DNA of 64,000 bases from Altererythrobacter sp. H2 (GTDB lineage Bacteria > Pseudomonadota > Alphaproteobacteria > Sphingomonadales > Sphingomonadaceae). Positions within the stretch are counted from its first letter, which is position 1; each line of letters starts with the position of its first letter. Below the pieces are notes generated by a model. It was not told where the DNA came from, did not search any database, and saw only the letters and a program-made list of their open reading frames with translations. Of this stretch, positions 39,521 through 47,468 are shown piece after piece. Where the stretch lies: contig NZ_CP141285.1 of NCBI RefSeq assembly GCF_035319885.1, positions 1,674,001 to 1,738,000 of the forward strand. Direction: 5' to 3'. The position numbers and the translations under genes are program-made.

Positions 39521-40807
39521 TTGGCGGACAAACTGGCGAAACTCGAACTGGGCGGGCAGACTCACGAATTCCCGGTCCTTGAAGGCAGCGTCGGGCCCGA
39601 TGTGGTCGATATCCGGAAGATGTATGCCGGCACCGGTGCCTTTACCTTTGACCCGGGCTTCACCTCGACCGCCAGCTGCGAAAGCGCGCTTACCTATATC
39701 GACGGTGAAGAGGGTGTGCTGCTGCACAGGGGCTATCCGATCGGGCAGCTTGCCGAGCAGTCCAGCTTCATGGAAGTCTCCTACCTGCTGCTGAACGGCG
39801 AACTGCCCAGCGCAGACGAACTGTCCGACTTCGAGAACACCATTACCCGCCACACCATGCTGCACGAGCAGCTGGCGACCTTCTATCGTGGTTTCCGCCG
39901 TGACGCCCACCCGATGGCAATCATGTGCGGTGTGGTCGGCGCTCTGTCAGCGTTTTATCATGACAGCACCGACATCTCCGATCCGAACCATCGCAAGATC
40001 TCGAGCCACCGCCTGATCGCCAAGATGCCGACCATTGCGGCCATGGCCTACAAGTATTCGGTCGGGCAGCCGTTCCTCTATCCCAAGAACGACCTCAGCT
40101 ATACCGGCAACTTCCTGCGCATGACCTTCGGTGTGCCCGCTGAAGAGTATGAGCTGCATCCTGCGGTCGAGCGGGCGATGGACCGGATCTTCATCCTCCA
40201 TGCCGATCATGAGCAGAACGCTTCGACCTCGACCGTGCGTCTGGCTGGCTCGTCGGGCGCCAATCCTTTCGCCTGCATCGCGGCCGGAATCGCCTGCCTG
40301 TGGGGTCCGGCGCATGGCGGCGCGAATGAAGCTGCGCTCAACATGCTGCAGGAAATCGGCACGCCCGACCGGATCCAGCACTACATCGACCGTGCCAAGG
40401 ACAAGAACGATCCTTTCCGCCTGATGGGCTTCGGCCACCGCGTGTACAAGAACTACGACCCGCGCGCGACGGTGATGCAGAAGACGGTACGCGAGGTGTT
40501 CGATGCGCTGAAGGTCACCGACCCGGTGTTTGAAACCGCGTTGCGGCTCGAAGAGATTGCGCTGAGCGATCCCTATTTCGCCGAGAAGAAGCTGTTCCCC
40601 AACGTCGACTTCTATTCGGGCATCATCCTGTCTGCGATCGGTTTCCCGACAACGATGTTCACCGCCCTGTTCGCGCTCGCCCGCACGGTTGGCTGGGTGG
40701 CGCAGTGGAACGAAATGATTTCCGACCCCGGCCAGAAGATCGGCCGCCCGCGCCAGCTCTACACCGGGCCGACGGAACGGGATTACGTGCCGATCGGCCA
40801 GCGGTAA
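39521..40807 (+). CDS. gltA: Citrate synthase (type II, hexameric class)
   Basis: Condenses oxaloacetate and acetyl-CoA to start the TCA cycle. Active-site residues are visible: His in [14 protein letters not shown], His in [15 protein letters not shown], and the late Asp in FPNVDFYSG. The N-terminal beta domain and 428-aa length match Gram-negative NADH-sensitive enzymes. Translation starts at TTG 39521, preceded by the strong site AAGGAGAA. Convergent with the histidine-kinase-like gene 11 nt away. Confidence 0.97.
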
Positions 40808-40818
40808 GCAATTGCCGG

Positions 40819-42216
40819 TTACCGGGGTTTCGTGCGCCGGTCTTCGAGGGCGGGGAGTGCCAGCGTAAAGCGGGCACCCTCGCCCTCTTTGCTTGATACG
40901 GTCAGGTCGCCGCCCATGGCGAGCGCGAGCTTGCGCGAAATGTACAGGCCCAGCCCTGACCCGCCGTCACCGCTGCGGCCAAGCCGTTCGAACTTGCGGA
41001 ACACGGCGTCCTGCTGCTCGCGCGAGAGCCCGGGGCCACTGTCGGCCACGGTTGCGAATGACTCGCTTCCAGCGCTGGAAAGGGAGATGCTTACGGTCGA
41101 CCCTTTTGGCGAATAGTGGATGGCGTTGCCGATCAGGTTGAGAAGGACCTGCAACGCCCGGCGGAATTCGCCGATCGCCAGAACCGGCGCAGTGCCGCCT
41201 TCGATCTCCAGTGTAATCTGGCGTTCGCGTGCCCTGACCCCGAGGATGCCGGTTGCCCGTTTGACAATATCCATCAGGTCGATCCGGTCGGGTGCGGTGC
41301 TGAAGCCCTCGGATTCGACGACTTCCAGATCGGCCAGGTCGTCAAGCAGCGAGAGCAGATGCTGCCCCGCCGAAGCGATGTCGGCGGCGTACTGGCTGTA
41401 TTCGTCCCCGAGAGGGCCCGCCAGGCGCGAACGGATCGTCTCCGCATTGGCAATAATCCGGGCGATCGGCTTGCGAAGGACCGGTGAGAGTTCGCGCCCG
41501 ATCCGGCGGTCGACCAGAGGAGAGGGAGCCACTTGCGCCGCTTTGACCCGGATCAGAGGACGGTCGGCGACGAGATAGAGTTCGAACCCGGCGCTCCCCG
41601 CCATCGGGCGGCCAAGCGGCACCAGCGAAACAGTCCATTCGCGCTGTGATCCTGTGACCGTGCAGCGGGCCCCGTCAAGCAGGCGCCAATGCATGGGTTG
41701 CCGATGGTTGTTCTGCACCAGTTCGACAAACTGGGTCCACGGCTTGCCGATACCGGCACGCATTGCCGTAGCCGCTTCCCGCAGGTCGGCAGCGTCGGCC
41801 TCGACCGTCAGCAAGCGCTGCCCCGGGTCGAGCCGGGCGCTCAGTTCGGCAGTTGCGCGGTCGATTTCGAGCCGTCGCCGCGCGGCGACCTGATCGGATT
41901 CGGGGGGCAACGGGCTCGCCTGCCAGCTCGCAACCGCGATGTCGCAGCCGGTCTGTCCATTCTGGCTGTACGGGGCAATCTCGACCCATGCCTCGACCCG
42001 TTCGTCCCCGTCGAGGGCGCCGACCAGTCGGGCGAGACGTAGTCCATACTGGCGCGATTTGCGCACCAGTGCGAGCAATTCGGGGATTGCCACCGTGCCG
42101 GGCAGCTCGCCGCCGCATCGCACCTGCAGACCGGCGAGCAGTTCATCAGCCTCGATCAGCCGGTCCTCCCCGTCAGTGCGGGCGTGCGCGAGCGCGGTCT
42201 TCTTGCTGGAAGCCAT
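40819..42216 (-). CDS. Sensor-histidine-kinase-like protein lacking the phospho-accepting histidine
   Basis: A 465-aa soluble protein without membrane helices. Two PAS-like regions (about 40-105 and 135-222) precede a helical DHp region (about 233-300) and an intact HATPase domain: N-box N360/N364 in LLNLIGNAIHYSP, G1 D392SGPG, F-box FRKFERLG (406-413) and G2 GGSGLGLYISRKLA. In the H-box the expected SHELRTP reads GRELSPVLRKP, placing Arg241 where His should be. It may bind ATP and act as an allosteric partner, as DivL (Tyr instead of His) does in Caulobacter, rather than autophosphorylate. Starts 3 nt after the previous stop; end of a four-gene minus-strand run. Confidence 0.85.
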   Translation of the reverse strand: MASSKKTALAHARTDGEDRLIEADELLAGLQVRCGGELPGTVAIPELLALVRKSRQYGLRLARLVGALDGDERVEAWVEIAPYSQNGQTGCDIAVASWQASPLPPESDQVAARRRLEIDRATAELSARLDPGQRLLTVEADAADLREAATAMRAGIGKPWTQFVELVQNNHRQPMHWRLLDGARCTVTGSQREWTVSLVPLGRPMAGSAGFELYLVADRPLIRVKAAQVAPSPLVDRRIGRELSPVLRKPIARIIANAETIRSRLAGPLGDEYSQYAADIASAGQHLLSLLDDLADLEVVESEGFSTAPDRIDLMDIVKRATGILGVRARERQITLEIEGGTAPVLAIGEFRRALQVLLNLIGNAIHYSPKGSTVSISLSSAGSESFATVADSGPGLSREQQDAVFRKFERLGRSGDGGSGLGLYISRKLALAMGGDLTVSSKEGEGARFTLALPALEDRRTKPR

Positions 42217-42219
42217 GGC

Positions 42220-43185
42220 CTAGCCCGCAGACCGCCGTACGGAAGATGCCAGCAGGCCGGCCGCCCGATCCCCGCGGAGAAAATCGAATCCATCCGGCAG
42301 GGCCACCTCGGGGTGGAGGTAGAGGAACTGCTCTTCCACGTCCTTCGACCGAAGGCCGGCGGCACGCAATGACAGCGCCATTCGTGCCAGCTGGCTGTCA
42401 TTGGTGGCAAGCACGGTGAGATCGCGTTCCTGCCGCGATGCATTTGCAAGGGCGGTCAGAAACAGGGCTGTGCCGGCATGGCTGATGGACAGGGCAGCGG
42501 TCACACCGCTCCCCAACCCGGAAATCAGCCTTGCCAGCAGACCAAGGCGGCTGGCGCCCTCGTCATACGCATTTCGCAGGGTCTGTTCAGCCCCATCGGC
42601 CGAATCCCCGTCACCTGTGCCGGATATCGTCCGCCATATCGTCAGGGCAGAGTGGAAGAGGTCTGCTGGCAGTTCTCCCAAGGGCAGCTCCATCCTTCGC
42701 TGCTGCTGCATGAAGCGGGCCTGTGCGGCGAGCGCGGCCATACCTGTCGTAGCCGTCGCCGGATCGTCCGAAGCAATCAGCGCCTGCATCAGCGGCGAGA
42801 GAACAGGATCGATCGCAGACCGCTCCTCAAGGCGCCGAGCGAGCTGCGCCTCGAGCGCCATGGCATGGCAATGCACGAGGAAATTCATGTTGCCCGCGAG
42901 AAGAGCGGCCAGCCGCGCCTCGAGCGGGCTGTCGACTTCCGGCATGGTCGCGGCAGGAGCCTCTTCACTGCCCTGAACGGTCAGGATCTGATGCGCCACG
43001 TGCCTCGTCATACCCCGCACCCGGGCGACGATCTCGTCACTGAACAGGGAATGGTCATGCTGTGCCAGCAAGTGGCCAAGGATAGGCCCTATCGTGCCGA
43101 GCACGATATCCCCGTGCGCGAGCTCCTCGCGGAGCACCGCTTCCACGGGCATCTCGTCTGCCGGATCGGTGGGGATGCTATCCAT
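42220..43185 (-). CDS. Helical protein of unknown function
   Basis: I do not recognise this 321-aa protein. It is Ala/Leu-rich and mostly alpha-helical, with no signal peptide and no certain membrane helix, although the segment around 230-250 (SGVTAALSISHAGTALFLTALANAS) is hydrophobic. A short basic C-terminus follows FLRGDRAAGLLASSV. It lies between the nucleotidyltransferase-like gene (24-nt gap holding a CtrA-like motif) and the kinase-like gene (3-nt gap), so it is probably a cytoplasmic partner in the same pathway. Confidence 0.7.
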   Translation of the reverse strand: MDSIPTDPADEMPVEAVLREELAHGDIVLGTIGPILGHLLAQHDHSLFSDEIVARVRGMTRHVAHQILTVQGSEEAPAATMPEVDSPLEARLAALLAGNMNFLVHCHAMALEAQLARRLEERSAIDPVLSPLMQALIASDDPATATTGMAALAAQARFMQQQRRMELPLGELPADLFHSALTIWRTISGTGDGDSADGAEQTLRNAYDEGASRLGLLARLISGLGSGVTAALSISHAGTALFLTALANASRQERDLTVLATNDSQLARMALSLRAAGLRSKDVEEQFLYLHPEVALPDGFDFLRGDRAAGLLASSVRRSAG

Positions 43186-43209
43186 CTGGCCGCCTTAGCG
43201 TGTCTGTGG

Positions 43210-43224
43210 TTAAGCGCGGGTTAG
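43210..43224 (-). promoter_or_regulatory. Candidate CtrA box upstream of the unknown helical protein gene
   Basis: Read on the plus strand it is TTAA-N7-TTAG, one mismatch from the CtrA core, 25-39 nt before the start of the 42220-43185 gene. It overlaps the stop codon of the upstream gene. Motif match only. Confidence 0.25.
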
Positions 43225-44403
43225 CCTAGCCGTATCGGGCCGGGCGAAAAGAAACACCAACAAAAGCATCGCCAGTACCTGGATTGCGATTTCCAGCCTG
43301 TTGCCTGCCGTAGCCACCGCAAGAACCACGAACAGCAGCATGTGGTCATAGGCAATCGATCGCGCCCAATCGCGCCCCCGCTTGCGTGCAAGATTCAACA
43401 GGCCAACCAGCATGACCAGGGGAAACGCAAGCGAGGTCCAGTCCCGCCCTGCCCCAGCCAGCAGAGGCGCGGCGACCACCGCAATGTCCAGCGCCAGAAC
43501 GGGGCCATCCCGGCGCAGCGCACTGGCATCTTCGCCCAAACCCTGGCGCAACTGATCAACTGCCATCCAGGCCCGCACCAGCGCCGCTGCACAAACAAGG
43601 ATGGCAAAGCTCGCTACCAGGAAGCCAGCTGCTGCGCTGATCAGCCCGAGCCCCAGAGCCAGAAAGCCCCCGCCCAGCACGAACGACACGCTTGCTGGCT
43701 GGCGCAACGTTGCCTCCGCACGGATACCCATGACACGGTCGACAAGGGCGTTGCCCGGGGCGAACCAGCTCGACGGCCGGAGCAGGGTCTTAACCATGCG
43801 CCGGCCCAATTCGCGCGCCGACCTTGCCGAGTCGACCAGCCGCCAGGAGCCATGTGCGATATGTTCCGGTGACACTTCGATCCGGGGACGTCCTGATTGC
43901 AAGGCCGATCGCATAAGCGCCGAGAGCGCATCGATGTCAGGGGGAAGCTCGGCCAGCCGTTCAAGGTCTGCTCCGCCGCACCTGAGCACGCCCGCCCAGG
44001 CCTCCGCCCGATCAACCCGTTCGAACCCGGCAGCTATCCCCGCCTCCACGGGGAAGGTCAGCACGCCTTTCCGGCGACCGATTGCCTCGGCAACGCTCTG
44101 TTCGTCCGGAATGACGCCGTCGGCGATGATCACGATTTCGTCAGCGGCGGTTATCAATCCGTGCAGCGCCTGTCGGCCGCTGACGGCATGAAACCTGCGC
44201 CCGGATCGTTCGACCCGGTGCTGGACAGCAACAAGCTCGGGCGAAAGTCCCTCAGCCAGGCAGATCACGCGTTCGCAGCCCAGTTCCAGCGCCATTTCCA
44301 CCTGACGTGCAATTACTGTATTGCCGGCCATCCGCAGGAAGGCGCGAGGACAAGAGGCGCCGTCGGTTGCGCGCTCCAGGGTTGAGAGAAGGGCAACCAG
44401 CAA
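43210..44403 (-). CDS. Nucleotidyltransferase-like domain fused to membrane helices, function unknown
   Basis: A 397-aa protein. Residues 1-130 resemble a sugar-nucleotidyltransferase Rossmann fold (PRAFLRMAGNTVIARQVEMALELGCERVICLA; then EIVIIADGVIPDEQSV where such enzymes have a metal-binding Asp), but the N-terminal G-x-G-x-R loop is degenerate. From about 240 on there are roughly five membrane helices (FVLGGGFLALGLGLISAAAGFLVAS onward). The layout recalls nucleotidyltransferase/CDP-alcohol transferase fusions, but I see no CDP-alcohol phosphotransferase motif. It may be an inactive relative anchored in the membrane. Confidence 0.6.
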   Translation of the reverse strand: MLVALLSTLERATDGASCPRAFLRMAGNTVIARQVEMALELGCERVICLAEGLSPELVAVQHRVERSGRRFHAVSGRQALHGLITAADEIVIIADGVIPDEQSVAEAIGRRKGVLTFPVEAGIAAGFERVDRAEAWAGVLRCGGADLERLAELPPDIDALSALMRSALQSGRPRIEVSPEHIAHGSWRLVDSARSARELGRRMVKTLLRPSSWFAPGNALVDRVMGIRAEATLRQPASVSFVLGGGFLALGLGLISAAAGFLVASFAILVCAAALVRAWMAVDQLRQGLGEDASALRRDGPVLALDIAVVAAPLLAGAGRDWTSLAFPLVMLVGLLNLARKRGRDWARSIAYDHMLLFVVLAVATAGNRLEIAIQVLAMLLLVFLFARPDTARLTRA

Positions 44404-44470
44404 GGCAGGGTTCCTCGAAGCGGTGACCCTTGAGTCTAGGCGGTCGATCCGTCCAAGCCAAGCATGGCTG

Positions 44471-44746
44471 TCAGTTTCGGGGAGTGTTGAAGTGCGCTCG
44501 GAAGGTTTCGAGGCGGCGTACGATCACGGGATCGCCCGGGGCGCTGGCCAGTGCTTCATCAGCCAGCGTGATGAGTTCAGCCGCGTGGAACGAAGCTGCG
44601 AGCCCCTTCAGCCGCAGCGCGGCCATGGTCCAGTTCCCATCGCACCGTGACCGCCTCAACAGGTCGATCTGGCGAGCCAGGCTGTCCGCGAAGGCCAGAC
44701 GTAATTCGGCCAGCAGGGCGGGATCCTTGCCTGCAGCAGCCGTCAA
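44471..44746 (-). CDS. Hpt-like (histidine phosphotransfer fold) protein lacking the histidine
   Basis: A small helical protein (91 aa from TTG 44746). MAALRLKGLAASFHAAELITLADEAL matches the Hpt signature HxLKGxAxxF, but the phosphorylated His position (three before the Lys) is Leu44. The frame continues upstream in a family-like way (GQTRLFDNGSFDAT) to a stop at 44807-44809, with no ATG, GTG or TTG there; the true start may be a rare codon, so the N-terminus is uncertain. First gene of the minus-strand run, divergent from the tipN-like gene. Confidence 0.6.
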   Translation of the reverse strand: MTAAAGKDPALLAELRLAFADSLARQIDLLRRSRCDGNWTMAALRLKGLAASFHAAELITLADEALASAPGDPVIVRRLETFRAHFNTPRN

Positions 44747-44806
44747 TGTGGCATCGAAAGAACCGTTGTCGAAAAGCCTCGTCTGGCCACTGTAATGCCG
44801 GCTTGG

Positions 44807-44823
44807 TTAAGACAGGGTTTAAC
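44807..44823. promoter_or_regulatory. CtrA-like motif in the tipN/Hpt divergent region
   Basis: TTAA-N8-TTAAC lies in the 106-nt divergent region, 30 nt before the tipN-like start. The CtrA consensus has a 7-nt spacer, so this is one base too long; one half-site (TTAACC, minus strand) is perfect. Confidence 0.25.
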
Positions 44824-44852
44824 ATGCAGCGAAACGTGGTAGCTTCCTGACC

Positions 44853-47468
44853 ATGAGCGGGGGATCAAAGATCAGGGCCATCGGGCCACAGCAGCCGGAA
44901 ACGGCAGAGTTGCATGATGTGGATGGCGTTGTGGCACCGCAGCCACCTCAGTCGCAGGAAGAGGATTGGGATGACGCCGATGCGCCGGCCAGGCGCGTGC
45001 CGACCTGGCTGATCCCTGCTCTGGCCCTGCTCGCAATTGCCGGGTGGACGGGTTTTTATGGCTGGGCGCTGCGCGATGCCCTTCTGGCTGGTGGTTCTCC
45101 GCAGCAGTGGATCGGATGGGTCGGCGAGTGGGCTGTGCCAACCTTGCTCATCATTGCCACATGGCTCCTGATGGTTCGCAACAGCAGCCGCGAGATGGAA
45201 CGGTTCGGTCAGGTCGCCCATTCGCTTCGGGAAGAATCAGCCGCGCTTGAAAGCCGGTTGGTCACGGTGAACCGGGAACTCAGCCTGGCCCGGGAATTCC
45301 TCTCTGCGCAATCACGGGAATTGGAATCGCTGGGCCGGGTCGCGAGCGAGCGCCTCTCCGCGCACGCTGACCACATCCAGTCACTCGTTCGCAGCAACGG
45401 CAGCGAGATCGAGGCAATCGCGTCGGTCAGTACCACTGCACTGGAGAATATGGGCCGCTTGCGTGACGACTTGCCCGTCATCGCCAATTCGGCCCGCGAT
45501 GCCGCCAACCAGATCGGCAGTGCTGGCCGCACGGCCCAAGGCCAGATTGCCGAGCTTGTTGCCGGATTCGAGCGCCTCAACCAGTTCGGCCAGGCCAGCG
45601 AACGGCAAGTCGGCTCATTGCAGTCACGAGTGGATGCCGCCATCTCAGCCTTCGAAGCGCAGTTCGATCACATGGGCGATCTGACGGGGGCACGGTTCGA
45701 TGCCCTTCGTACTGCAAGCGAGGCGTTCCGGGTTGAGCTCGATGGTCGCGAGGTCGAAGCACTTGCCGCCCTGCGTCGCCGCACCGAAGCACTGGAACAG
45801 GAAGTCGCAACAACAAGGAACGCACTTGACGAGACCGAGGCGGAAGCTTTGCGCTCGATGCGTGCGCGGGTGATCGCCTTGCAACAGGAAGCGCGGCAAG
45901 TTGCCGGTGTGCTGCGTGACACAGAGGCGCAAGCTAGTGCGCTCTGGTCGAAACAGATTGAGGCCCTGAACGCCCGACTGCTCGGCGCAATCGACGAGAT
46001 CAAGGGGATCGATGAGGCCGCACTTGAATCGGCCAATCGCAAGCTCGAAGCGCTTCGCCACGAAGCGGAAAACGTTGATCGCAACATTGCGGAACGCGAT
46101 GCGCGCCTCTTTGCAAAGATTGCCGAGCGCCAGAGCGCCATGGCGAAAACCGAACGCGAGACACTTGCTGCACTGGAAGCCCGGATCGAGGCGCTGGACA
46201 GCCTGCTCGCCAGTCGGCGCGAAACCCTGCGCGAGCAGACCGAAGTGCTTGGCGCGCAGGGCCAGGCCGTGGCTGAAAAGCTGTGGGAGCTGCGCGGAGA
46301 CATGCGGGCCATCGCCGAGGCAGGCGAGGAGACCGAAAGCCGTCTGGCGGGCAGTATCGCTGCGCTGGCAGAAAAGCTGGCCGAGAGTCGTATGGCTTTG
46401 GCCGGCACTGATGAGGCCGTGGCCGAACTGACTGACGCCAGCATCCGATTGCTGGAACTGATCCAGGCCAGCGCCCAGCATTCACGGACCGAGCTGCCGG
46501 CGGCGCTCGAAGAGGCAGAGTCGCGACTTGGTACACTCGGCAAGGAAACGGACAGCCTGCGCGGCGTGCTCGATGATGCAGCCCGAAAGGGCGCTGACCT
46601 GTCAGCCTATGTCATTGCCACGCGCGAAGACAGCGAAGCCGCAATCGGCCGGATCGCGGAGGTGCAGACCGAGCTGGATTCAAGCACGGCGGCAAGTCTT
46701 TCGCGGATAGACGGTCTGCGGAGCGCCCTGGCTGGCGCGAGTGTCGAAAGCGACGCCTTGGCCGCCAAGGCAACCGGCGCCTTGCGGGATGCGATTGCCC
46801 TGCTCGAGCGGAATGCGCGTGAGGCTATCGTTTCGGTGGAGACACTGAGCGCCGATACCGTGCGGTCACTCGCAGAGAGGATTGCGGACCGGTCAGGCTC
46901 TGCCATCGAACAGGCACTTGCTGACAGCACTGAAGGTGCGCTTGCCGGGCTCGAACAGGCCAGCGCAAGGGCCACCGCCGCTGGACGAGAGGCGACCGTG
47001 CAACTGCGTGACCAGCTGGCACGGGTCAATGAACTGGCCGGAAATCTCGAGATGCGGGTGGCCCGGGCCCGCGAACTGGCAGAAGAGCAGGTCGACAACG
47101 ATTTCGCCCGGCGTGTCGCGCTCATCACCGAAGGCCTCAATTCGACCGCGATAGATATTGCAAAGGTCATTTCGACCGATGTCAGTGACAGTGCCTGGAC
47201 TTCGTACCTGCGGGGGGATCGCGGTATCTTCACCCGGCGTGCCGTCCGCCTGCTTGACAATACCCAGGCTCGCGAAATCGCCGAGCTCTACGATGCCGAC
47301 GTCGATTTCCGCGATAACGTCAGCCGCTACATTGCCGATTTCGAAAACATGCTGCGCACCCTGCTTTCCACCCGGGATGGCAAGTCCGTCAGCGTGACCC
47401 TGCTCAGTTCAGATATGGGCAAGCTTTACGTGGCGCTTGCGCAGGCGATCGAGCGGCTGCGCGCCTAA
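44853..47468 (+). CDS. tipN: TipN-like polar marker: two membrane helices and a very long coiled coil
   Basis: An 871-aa protein with an acidic N-terminal tail, two closely spaced membrane helices (about 50-75 and 92-111), then a coiled coil to about residue 760, rich in Ala, Glu, Arg and Leu. The conserved C-terminal domain contains DNDFARRVALITEGLNSTA, WTSYLRGDRGIFTRRAVRLL and LLSSDMGKLYVALAQAIERL. Size and layout match Caulobacter TipN, which marks the new pole and orients flagellum and division-plane assembly. The homology call is by architecture and C-terminal domain; the symbol is therefore provisional. Overlaps convergent DUF1467 by 4 nt. Confidence 0.75.
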   Translation: MSGGSKIRAIGPQQPETAELHDVDGVVAPQPPQSQEEDWDDADAPARRVPTWLIPALALLAIAGWTGFYGWALRDALLAGGSPQQWIGWVGEWAVPTLLIIATWLLMVRNSSREMERFGQVAHSLREESAALESRLVTVNRELSLAREFLSAQSRELESLGRVASERLSAHADHIQSLVRSNGSEIEAIASVSTTALENMGRLRDDLPVIANSARDAANQIGSAGRTAQGQIAELVAGFERLNQFGQASERQVGSLQSRVDAAISAFEAQFDHMGDLTGARFDALRTASEAFRVELDGREVEALAALRRRTEALEQEVATTRNALDETEAEALRSMRARVIALQQEARQVAGVLRDTEAQASALWSKQIEALNARLLGAIDEIKGIDEAALESANRKLEALRHEAENVDRNIAERDARLFAKIAERQSAMAKTERETLAALEARIEALDSLLASRRETLREQTEVLGAQGQAVAEKLWELRGDMRAIAEAGEETESRLAGSIAALAEKLAESRMALAGTDEAVAELTDASIRLLELIQASAQHSRTELPAALEEAESRLGTLGKETDSLRGVLDDAARKGADLSAYVIATREDSEAAIGRIAEVQTELDSSTAASLSRIDGLRSALAGASVESDALAAKATGALRDAIALLERNAREAIVSVETLSADTVRSLAERIADRSGSAIEQALADSTEGALAGLEQASARATAAGREATVQLRDQLARVNELAGNLEMRVARARELAEEQVDNDFARRVALITEGLNSTAIDIAKVISTDVSDSAWTSYLRGDRGIFTRRAVRLLDNTQAREIAELYDADVDFRDNVSRYIADFENMLRTLLSTRDGKSVSVTLLSSDMGKLYVALAQAIERLRA

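Follow-up and report, generated by a model that had tools for sequence, protein, structure and literature searches.

Loss of phospho-acceptor histidines in a probable phosphorelay remnant encoded beside tipN in Sphingomonadaceae

In Altererythrobacter sp. H2 a gene for a TipN-like protein lies divergently from a minus-strand run of four genes, and the cluster is very probably what is left of a phosphorelay whose genes stood back-to-back with tipN. The locus was studied in a stretch of 64,000 nucleotides (contig NZ_CP141285.1, positions 1,674,001 to 1,738,000), referred to as the window, from a single-contig genome of 3.24 Mb whose nearest named relatives are Pontixanthobacter, Parerythrobacter and Altererythrobacter. 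From tipN outwards the run encodes an Hpt-like protein (pseudo-Hpt), a nucleotidyltransferase-like protein with a membrane domain (NTP), an all-helical protein (HEL) and a pseudo-histidine kinase (pseudo-HK). The sequence comparisons below bear out that this neighbourhood descends from a relay, that the phospho-acceptors were lost and that selection was retained. All five open reading frames (ORFs) of the initial annotation were confirmed at their positions and in their order, as was the 106-bp divergent gap between the pseudo-Hpt gene and tipN (44747-44852).

Relatives were drawn from 120 Sphingomonadales genomes (the order sample) and 190 alphaproteobacterial genomes (the class sample). About 19 kb around tipN was taken from the sampled family members and from 16 genomes of other families, and was analysed by iterated profile searches. 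Gene order was compared in 36 family genomes, of which 34 form the core; the deep-branching or divergent G053 and G107 were left out of it. Eighty named loci form an independent collection, picked by TipN similarity and biased to close relatives. TipN-like proteins are present in 106 of the 120 genomes of the order and in 79 of the 190 of the class. Relatives of NTP, HEL and the pseudo-HK are, in the order sample, essentially restricted to the window's own family.

Loss of the histidine in the Hpt and the kinase

The pseudo-Hpt (44471..44746, minus strand) gave no Hpt match when the single sequence was searched against Pfam. The profile of its family matches Hpt structures, the best of them 2ooc (E=8.7e-12), which we take to be ShpA of Caulobacter, and the family members that bear the histidine score as Pfam Hpt (PF01627). 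By this profile and by its canonical relatives beside tipN the protein is assigned as a ShpA-type Hpt that lacks the phospho-acceptor histidine. In genomes outside the core family, tipN has a canonical Hpt with the motif AHKLKGAARSIGA as its neighbour; the histidine is present in each of the 14 Hpts from other Sphingomonadales families and in basal G053. Among core Hpts the same position is occupied by M, L, Q, W, A or G (L in the window) and never by H (25 of 25 order-sample genomes). The alignment is clear, with A-H-K-L-K-G changed to A-M/L-R-L-K-G in core Sphingomonadaceae. None of the 60 Hpts of the 80 named loci in which the position is readable has H.

The start of the window gene is unusual. 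In the region 44746-44788 relatives begin the Hpt gene with an ATG at a place where the window has AGG; its listed start, a TTG, is about 12 codons downstream. The true N terminus probably lies up to about 12 codons upstream of the listed start; the AGG may be a start mutation, point to an alternative start or be a sequencing error.

The pseudo-HK (40819..42216, minus strand) matches HATPase_c (4.9e-24) and HisKA (2.9e-6) of Pfam. Its DHp domain is degenerate (SPVLRKP for SHELRTP) and its HATPase_c domain intact. A canonical H-box occurs in none of the 102 core orthologues, while the ATP-binding boxes are kept (G1 102 of 102, G2 102 of 102, N-box about 99 of 102). A single conserved phosphorylatable substitute, such as the tyrosine of DivL, was considered for the lost histidine and rejected: the position is mostly Pro, or else Arg, Gly, Glu, Asp or Ser.

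As judged from these sequences, both the Hpt and the HK are unable to signal through a canonical histidine in all core Sphingomonadaceae examined, and the missing histidines are family-wide traits, not quirks of the window strain. The suggestion that none of the four proteins would signal by canonical histidine phosphorylation thus stands for these two.

The genes concerned are not decaying. Median dN/dS (the ratio of nonsynonymous to synonymous substitution rates) over the 25 closest pairs was 0.12 for the pseudo-Hpt, 0.14 for the pseudo-HK, 0.16 for HEL, 0.24 for NTP, 0.22 for TipN and 0.08 for gltA; a wider set gave the same ranking, with dS saturated. The frames are open in all relatives. 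The Hpt and the HK are under strong purifying selection and are more constrained than TipN itself.

Origin of the locus

The pairing of tipN with an Hpt is older than the loss of the histidine. In other Sphingomonadales families the Hpt gene is followed by a CheY-like receiver (REC; Response_reg 3.3e-16) and then by a second Hpt (Hpt2); REC and Hpt2, both identified by Pfam, are present at 17 loci. A search of the class sample with the 2ooc sequence found a histidine-bearing ShpA-type Hpt divergent from tipN in 10 genomes from 8 families of other orders (G122, G257, G128, G261, G241, G234, G258, G239, G175 and G306), with up to about 1.2 kb between the frames, which argues that the pairing is old. 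In a separate batch of 20 class genomes that was inspected, the pair occurred in only one. The cluster had been suggested to form a complex specific to this lineage; the histidine-less state does characterize the core family, but the tipN-Hpt pair is ancient and extends to other orders, so the locus is better seen as an old relay remnant than as a new module assembled here.

A tree of the TipN C-terminal region places the change. All histidine-less Hpts fall in one clade (support 100/99). Outside it branch G107 (placement 92/62), which has no Hpt, next the group of G391, G435 and G431 (98/91), and finally G053, whose branch is long. The histidine is retained in the Hpts of G391, G435 and G053, and no Hpt was detected in G431. 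In this sister lineage tipN is divergent from Hpt-REC-Hpt2-NTP (G435 and G391) or from REC-Hpt2-NTP (G431). A few kb beyond this run, G391 carries a genuine DUF2336 gene (Pfam 5.1e-63; HEL profile 7.7e-24) directly followed by a PAS-containing histidine kinase with an intact SHELRTP. G391 thus has its genes in the core order, Hpt-NTP-HEL-HK; REC, Hpt2 and a flgK-like gene are retained there as well. Of 60 family genomes, 4 have a strongly scoring Hpt2 (G053, G391, G431 and G435), always at the ancestral locus, and absence of Hpt2 coincides with loss of the Hpt histidine in the genomes examined.

On the stem of the core Sphingomonadaceae, the first Hpt lost its histidine. Hpt2 is missing from almost all of the family, and the core HK lacks its histidine. 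Four proteins survived in the ancestral order and are still under purifying selection: the Hpt, NTP, HEL as a divergent DUF2336 protein, and the HK.

Caulobacter offers both a parallel and a difference. In the ShkA-ShpA-TacA phosphorelay of that genus, ShpA (2ooc) is the best solved relative of the tipN-linked Hpt, whose histidine is likewise kept outside Sphingomonadaceae. The core Sphingomonadaceae Hpt has lost it, whereas in Caulobacter it is the pair that is broken: shpA and the TipN-like gene are 1.1 Mb apart in G353 (a single contig) and on different contigs in G383, which has the 2ooc sequence at 100% identity. TacA and ShkA did not turn up here, and no search was aimed at them.

Other genes accompany the ancestral locus. 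Beyond NTP, wzi-like and/or flgK-like genes occur at the tipN locus in basal sphingomonad genomes (L311, L312, L313), and given these neighbours a link of the ancestral locus to the envelope or the flagellum is possible. Between tipN and the canonical Hpt, several other Sphingomonadales families have a small gene of about 134 codons with no Pfam match (L125:9113-9514).

The HEL and NTP proteins

HEL (42220..43185, minus strand) was called unknown in the initial annotation and can now be identified as a divergent relative of DUF2336. It has no Pfam match up to E=1, and its all-helical AlphaFold model (pLDDT 91) gave no useful structural match (Foldseek against PDB; VIA). Profile comparison with hhalign aligned HEL to DUF2336 (PF10098) over 245 columns (probability 96.8, E=2.6e-10), and a bridging protein (L313:14605-15798) matches both profiles. 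HEL differs from DUF2336 in its shorter N terminus and in having no Pfam match of its own. The idea that HEL forms a new fold family was dropped, since the profile comparison ties it to DUF2336. Many alphaproteobacterial genomes, other orders included, have a DUF2336 gene that is downstream of tipN and convergent with it (L125:15430-16590, L132:5014-6192, L133:5586-6707, L134:10803-12026, L169, L170, L180, L182, L312, L313). No paper on DUF2336 was found in the open-access literature, and the locus provides a first context for these proteins.

NTP (43210..44403, minus strand; start codon uncertain) had been read as a fusion of a nucleotidyltransferase with a membrane part, and its model agrees (pLDDT 92.5). 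By Foldseek the N-terminal half matches nucleotidyltransferases (GlmU) and the membrane part matches the CDP-alcohol phosphotransferases AF2299 (4o6m) and PIP synthase (5d92) with E of about 5e-6 to 2e-5; the NTP profile matches the bifunctional IPCT-DIPPS 4mnd (1.9e-5). NTP has the two-domain layout and the folds in common with these enzymes but differs in the catalytic motifs. The CDP-alcohol motif D-x2-DG-x2-AR-x8/9-G-x3-D-x3-D occurs in 0 of 114 NTP homologues, and GxGxR-like strings near the N terminus occur in 6 of the 114 and not in the window protein. Catalysis by NTP is therefore unlikely, and an active enzyme was rejected as its function; ligand binding may persist. In G014, from another family, the NTP relative still scores as CDP-OH_P_transf.

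TipN and its promoter region

The TipN-like protein (44853..47468, plus strand) has an N-terminal membrane segment, a long coiled-coil and a conserved C-terminal domain in which the family shows invariant residues. Caulobacter TipN is likewise anchored in the membrane and has a long coiled-coil and a conserved C-terminal domain. Frames of 830-900 codons in Caulobacter are matched weakly by the family profile, at about 1e-16 to 1e-23 when the search is confined to small ORF sets and at 2e-7 to 4e-7 genome-wide in two of them. The Caulobacter frame differs from the window protein in its low similarity and in having no Hpt within about 5 kb. The 900-codon Caulobacter frame, matched at 1e-16 in a small set, is a candidate TipN and is taken as such here.

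Upstream of tipN, a motif search of 81 loci revealed a conserved, putative CtrA-like box, GGTTAAGACAGGGTTTAA in the window (44805..44822, plus strand), followed near the tipN start by a -10-like element, TGGTAGCTT (44837..44845, plus strand; column conservation of TG.TA 0.85-0.92). The layout GGTTAAnncgGGGTTTAt, about 13 nt, cgTGgTAnnnT is found in Erythrobacter/Novosphingobium-type genomes, with the box in most cases 45-48 nt ahead of tipN. Searching for the box with a regular expression gave 62 matches in the 1.63 Mb of the 81 loci, none of them seen away from the position upstream of tipN: 49 are no more than 250 nt upstream of the gene (fixed locus coordinate), and 12 of the remaining 13, which are in contig-clipped loci, precede the listed match start by 45-48 nt. 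The box of L242 cannot be placed exactly, as the match begins at residue 50. TTAA-N8-TTAA is expected 0.02 times per window. A strict CtrA site (TTAA-N7-TTAA) was rejected, the spacing in the window being N8 and many relatives ending in TTTA; the box therefore only resembles one. In the loci searched it was not found in more distant core genera or in other families. With the -10-like element almost at the ATG, the leader of tipN may be very short, and a near-leaderless mRNA is possible.

Conservation of gene order

Two blocks of genes recur among relatives. In block B the pseudo-Hpt gene is divergent from tipN-DUF1467-RNaseJ-coaX-birA-nuoN, and block A is comEC-gltX-gltA-HK-HEL-NTP. The two are joined as in the window in 24 of the 34 core genomes, and the joined order was found in Erythrobacteraceae/Novosphingobium-type genomes. 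In the 80 named loci the order gltA-HK-HEL-NTP-Hpt-tipN recurs in every case as far as the contig extends; NTP was detected in 80, HEL in 74, HK in 72 and Hpt in 67, some contigs ending early. Chance is excluded as the cause of this recurrence, and so is an order private to this strain, which had been named beforehand as the result that would count against a link to tipN.

Interpretation and alternative explanations

The best explanation of the whole, which we hold with moderate confidence, is a TipN-linked remnant of a relay that has been repurposed and, like DivL, works without phosphorylation. Taken separately, a non-catalytic repurposing of the relay proteins is likely, and a physical complex with TipN is possible but doubtful. 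The precedent is DivL, a PAS-containing histidine kinase with Tyr in place of His that does not phosphorylate DivK but acts as a sensor of DivK~P (PMC4211667). Like DivL, the core HK combines a DHp domain that lacks the histidine with a CA domain, is conserved across its clade and is linked to polarity by context. It is unlike DivL in that the residue at the histidine position varies, where DivL has a conserved Tyr, and in that domain layout and partners differ or are obscure. By this precedent the pseudo-HK and the pseudo-Hpt are likewise proposed as binders. They would keep their receiver-binding and ATP-binding folds and act by binding, not by phosphate transfer: in one version they would sense a phosphorylated receiver, or serve it as an adaptor, in the manner of DivL, and in the other they would form an ATP-gated scaffold. 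They might bind a receiver or each other, and TipN might concentrate them at the new pole. The degraded NTP/CDP-alcohol-phosphotransferase protein would be a membrane anchor, and the conserved CtrA-like box would set tipN expression.

Several observations weigh against this explanation. Blocks A and B are apart in 10 of the 34 core genomes, and the break is always between NTP and the Hpt. The pseudo-Hpt was undetected in 13 of the 80 named loci and in 9 of the 34 core order-sample genomes, where tipN and the NTP-HEL-HK trio persist, so in some lineages it is dispensable or unrecognisable. An intact HK adjoining DUF2336 was seen in one genome, G391, which is 86% complete and 7% contaminated and has frameshifted genes; with so imperfect an assembly the DUF2336-HK link is the weakest.

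The split genomes in particular suggest another reading, in which the neighbourhood is kept by descent and has no present functional unity: the pseudo-Hpt would go with tipN, and NTP-HEL-HK would be an independent, gltA-tied operon for envelope or metabolic regulation. Where the blocks are split they lie about 160-425 kb apart if on one contig and otherwise on different contigs, and at every second locus fetched NTP, HK and gltA are still together, with the trio by gltA-gltX-comEC. Such genomes must have separate promoters, and the trio can persist after loss of the Hpt. The claim that all four genes are linked to tipN therefore needs narrowing: tipN has a strict neighbour in the Hpt alone, and the other genes are neither consistently separate from it nor always with it. 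Yet in basal genomes NTP lies directly behind Hpt-REC-Hpt2 at tipN, and in one of them DUF2336 and HK genes are nearby, so the association predates the core family. In the window the intergenic gaps of the run (Hpt-NTP 67, NTP-HEL 24 and HEL-HK 3 bp) also suggest a single transcript. Descent without functional unity is considered unlikely, although far from negligible. Phosphotransfer by another route is quite improbable: the HATPase domain would act on a different residue or on a separate Hpt or DHp in trans, with the pseudo-Hpt as a competitive decoy. The strictly kept ATP-binding boxes of the pseudo-HK would fit it, but no conserved phosphorylatable residue replaces either histidine, both positions vary freely, and Hpt2 is gone from nearly all core genomes. 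Pseudogene decay would account for the loss of active-site residues in the Hpt, the HK and NTP and for the missing Hpt of some lineages; it is refuted by dN/dS medians of 0.12-0.24, with frames open in all relatives and the Hpt and HK held tighter than TipN, and we give it next to no credence.

The locus also provides a case, with its place on a tree, of relay members that lost their phospho-acceptors and were still kept by selection, which extends the single-protein precedent of DivL. A wider picture is offered more tentatively and is rather unlikely to hold in full: that in Sphingomonadaceae the relay turned wholesale into a phosphate-free polarity complex of the pseudo-HK, the pseudo-Hpt, a protein derived from DUF2336 and a dead lipid enzyme as membrane anchor, that TipN is paired with a ShpA-type relay across much of Alphaproteobacteria, and that tipN has a dedicated CtrA-like box. 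Caulobacter TipN is a new-pole marker needed for flagellum placement, and the signal for its relocation has been described as unknown (PMC7403779). The recurrent pairing of tipN with a ShpA-type Hpt provides a concrete, testable candidate for a signal of this kind. Sphingomonadales are reported to have lost or degraded DivJ-PleC-DivK and to have kept CckA-ChpT-CtrA (PMC2877005). In the open-access literature no relevant paper joining TipN with ShpA was found, and nothing relevant on TipN in Sphingomonas.

Neighbouring genes

In the window, comEC, gltX and gltA flank the run on the HK side, and DUF1467, RNase J, coaX, birA and nuoN flank tipN on the other (housekeeping names read from the sequence). 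The gltA gene is convergent with the pseudo-HK gene (39521-42216) in nearly all core genomes, including those in which the trio is no longer beside tipN. In Caulobacter, loss of the citrate synthase CitA corrects the defects of a tipN cpdR double mutant (PMC7083601); the resemblance of this genetic link to the gltA-HK neighbourhood may be a coincidence.

In three genomes of one genus (G080, G035 and G098; L098:5690-9421, L084, L104) a TPR protein and an unrelated HisKA protein flank the pseudo-Hpt and tipN in place of NTP-HEL-HK. The HK near tipN in G035, G080, G098, G089 and G118 was rejected as an orthologue of the pseudo-HK, its match being 2e-49 or worse against about 1e-160; the true orthologue of this genus lies by gltA wherever that locus was fetched.

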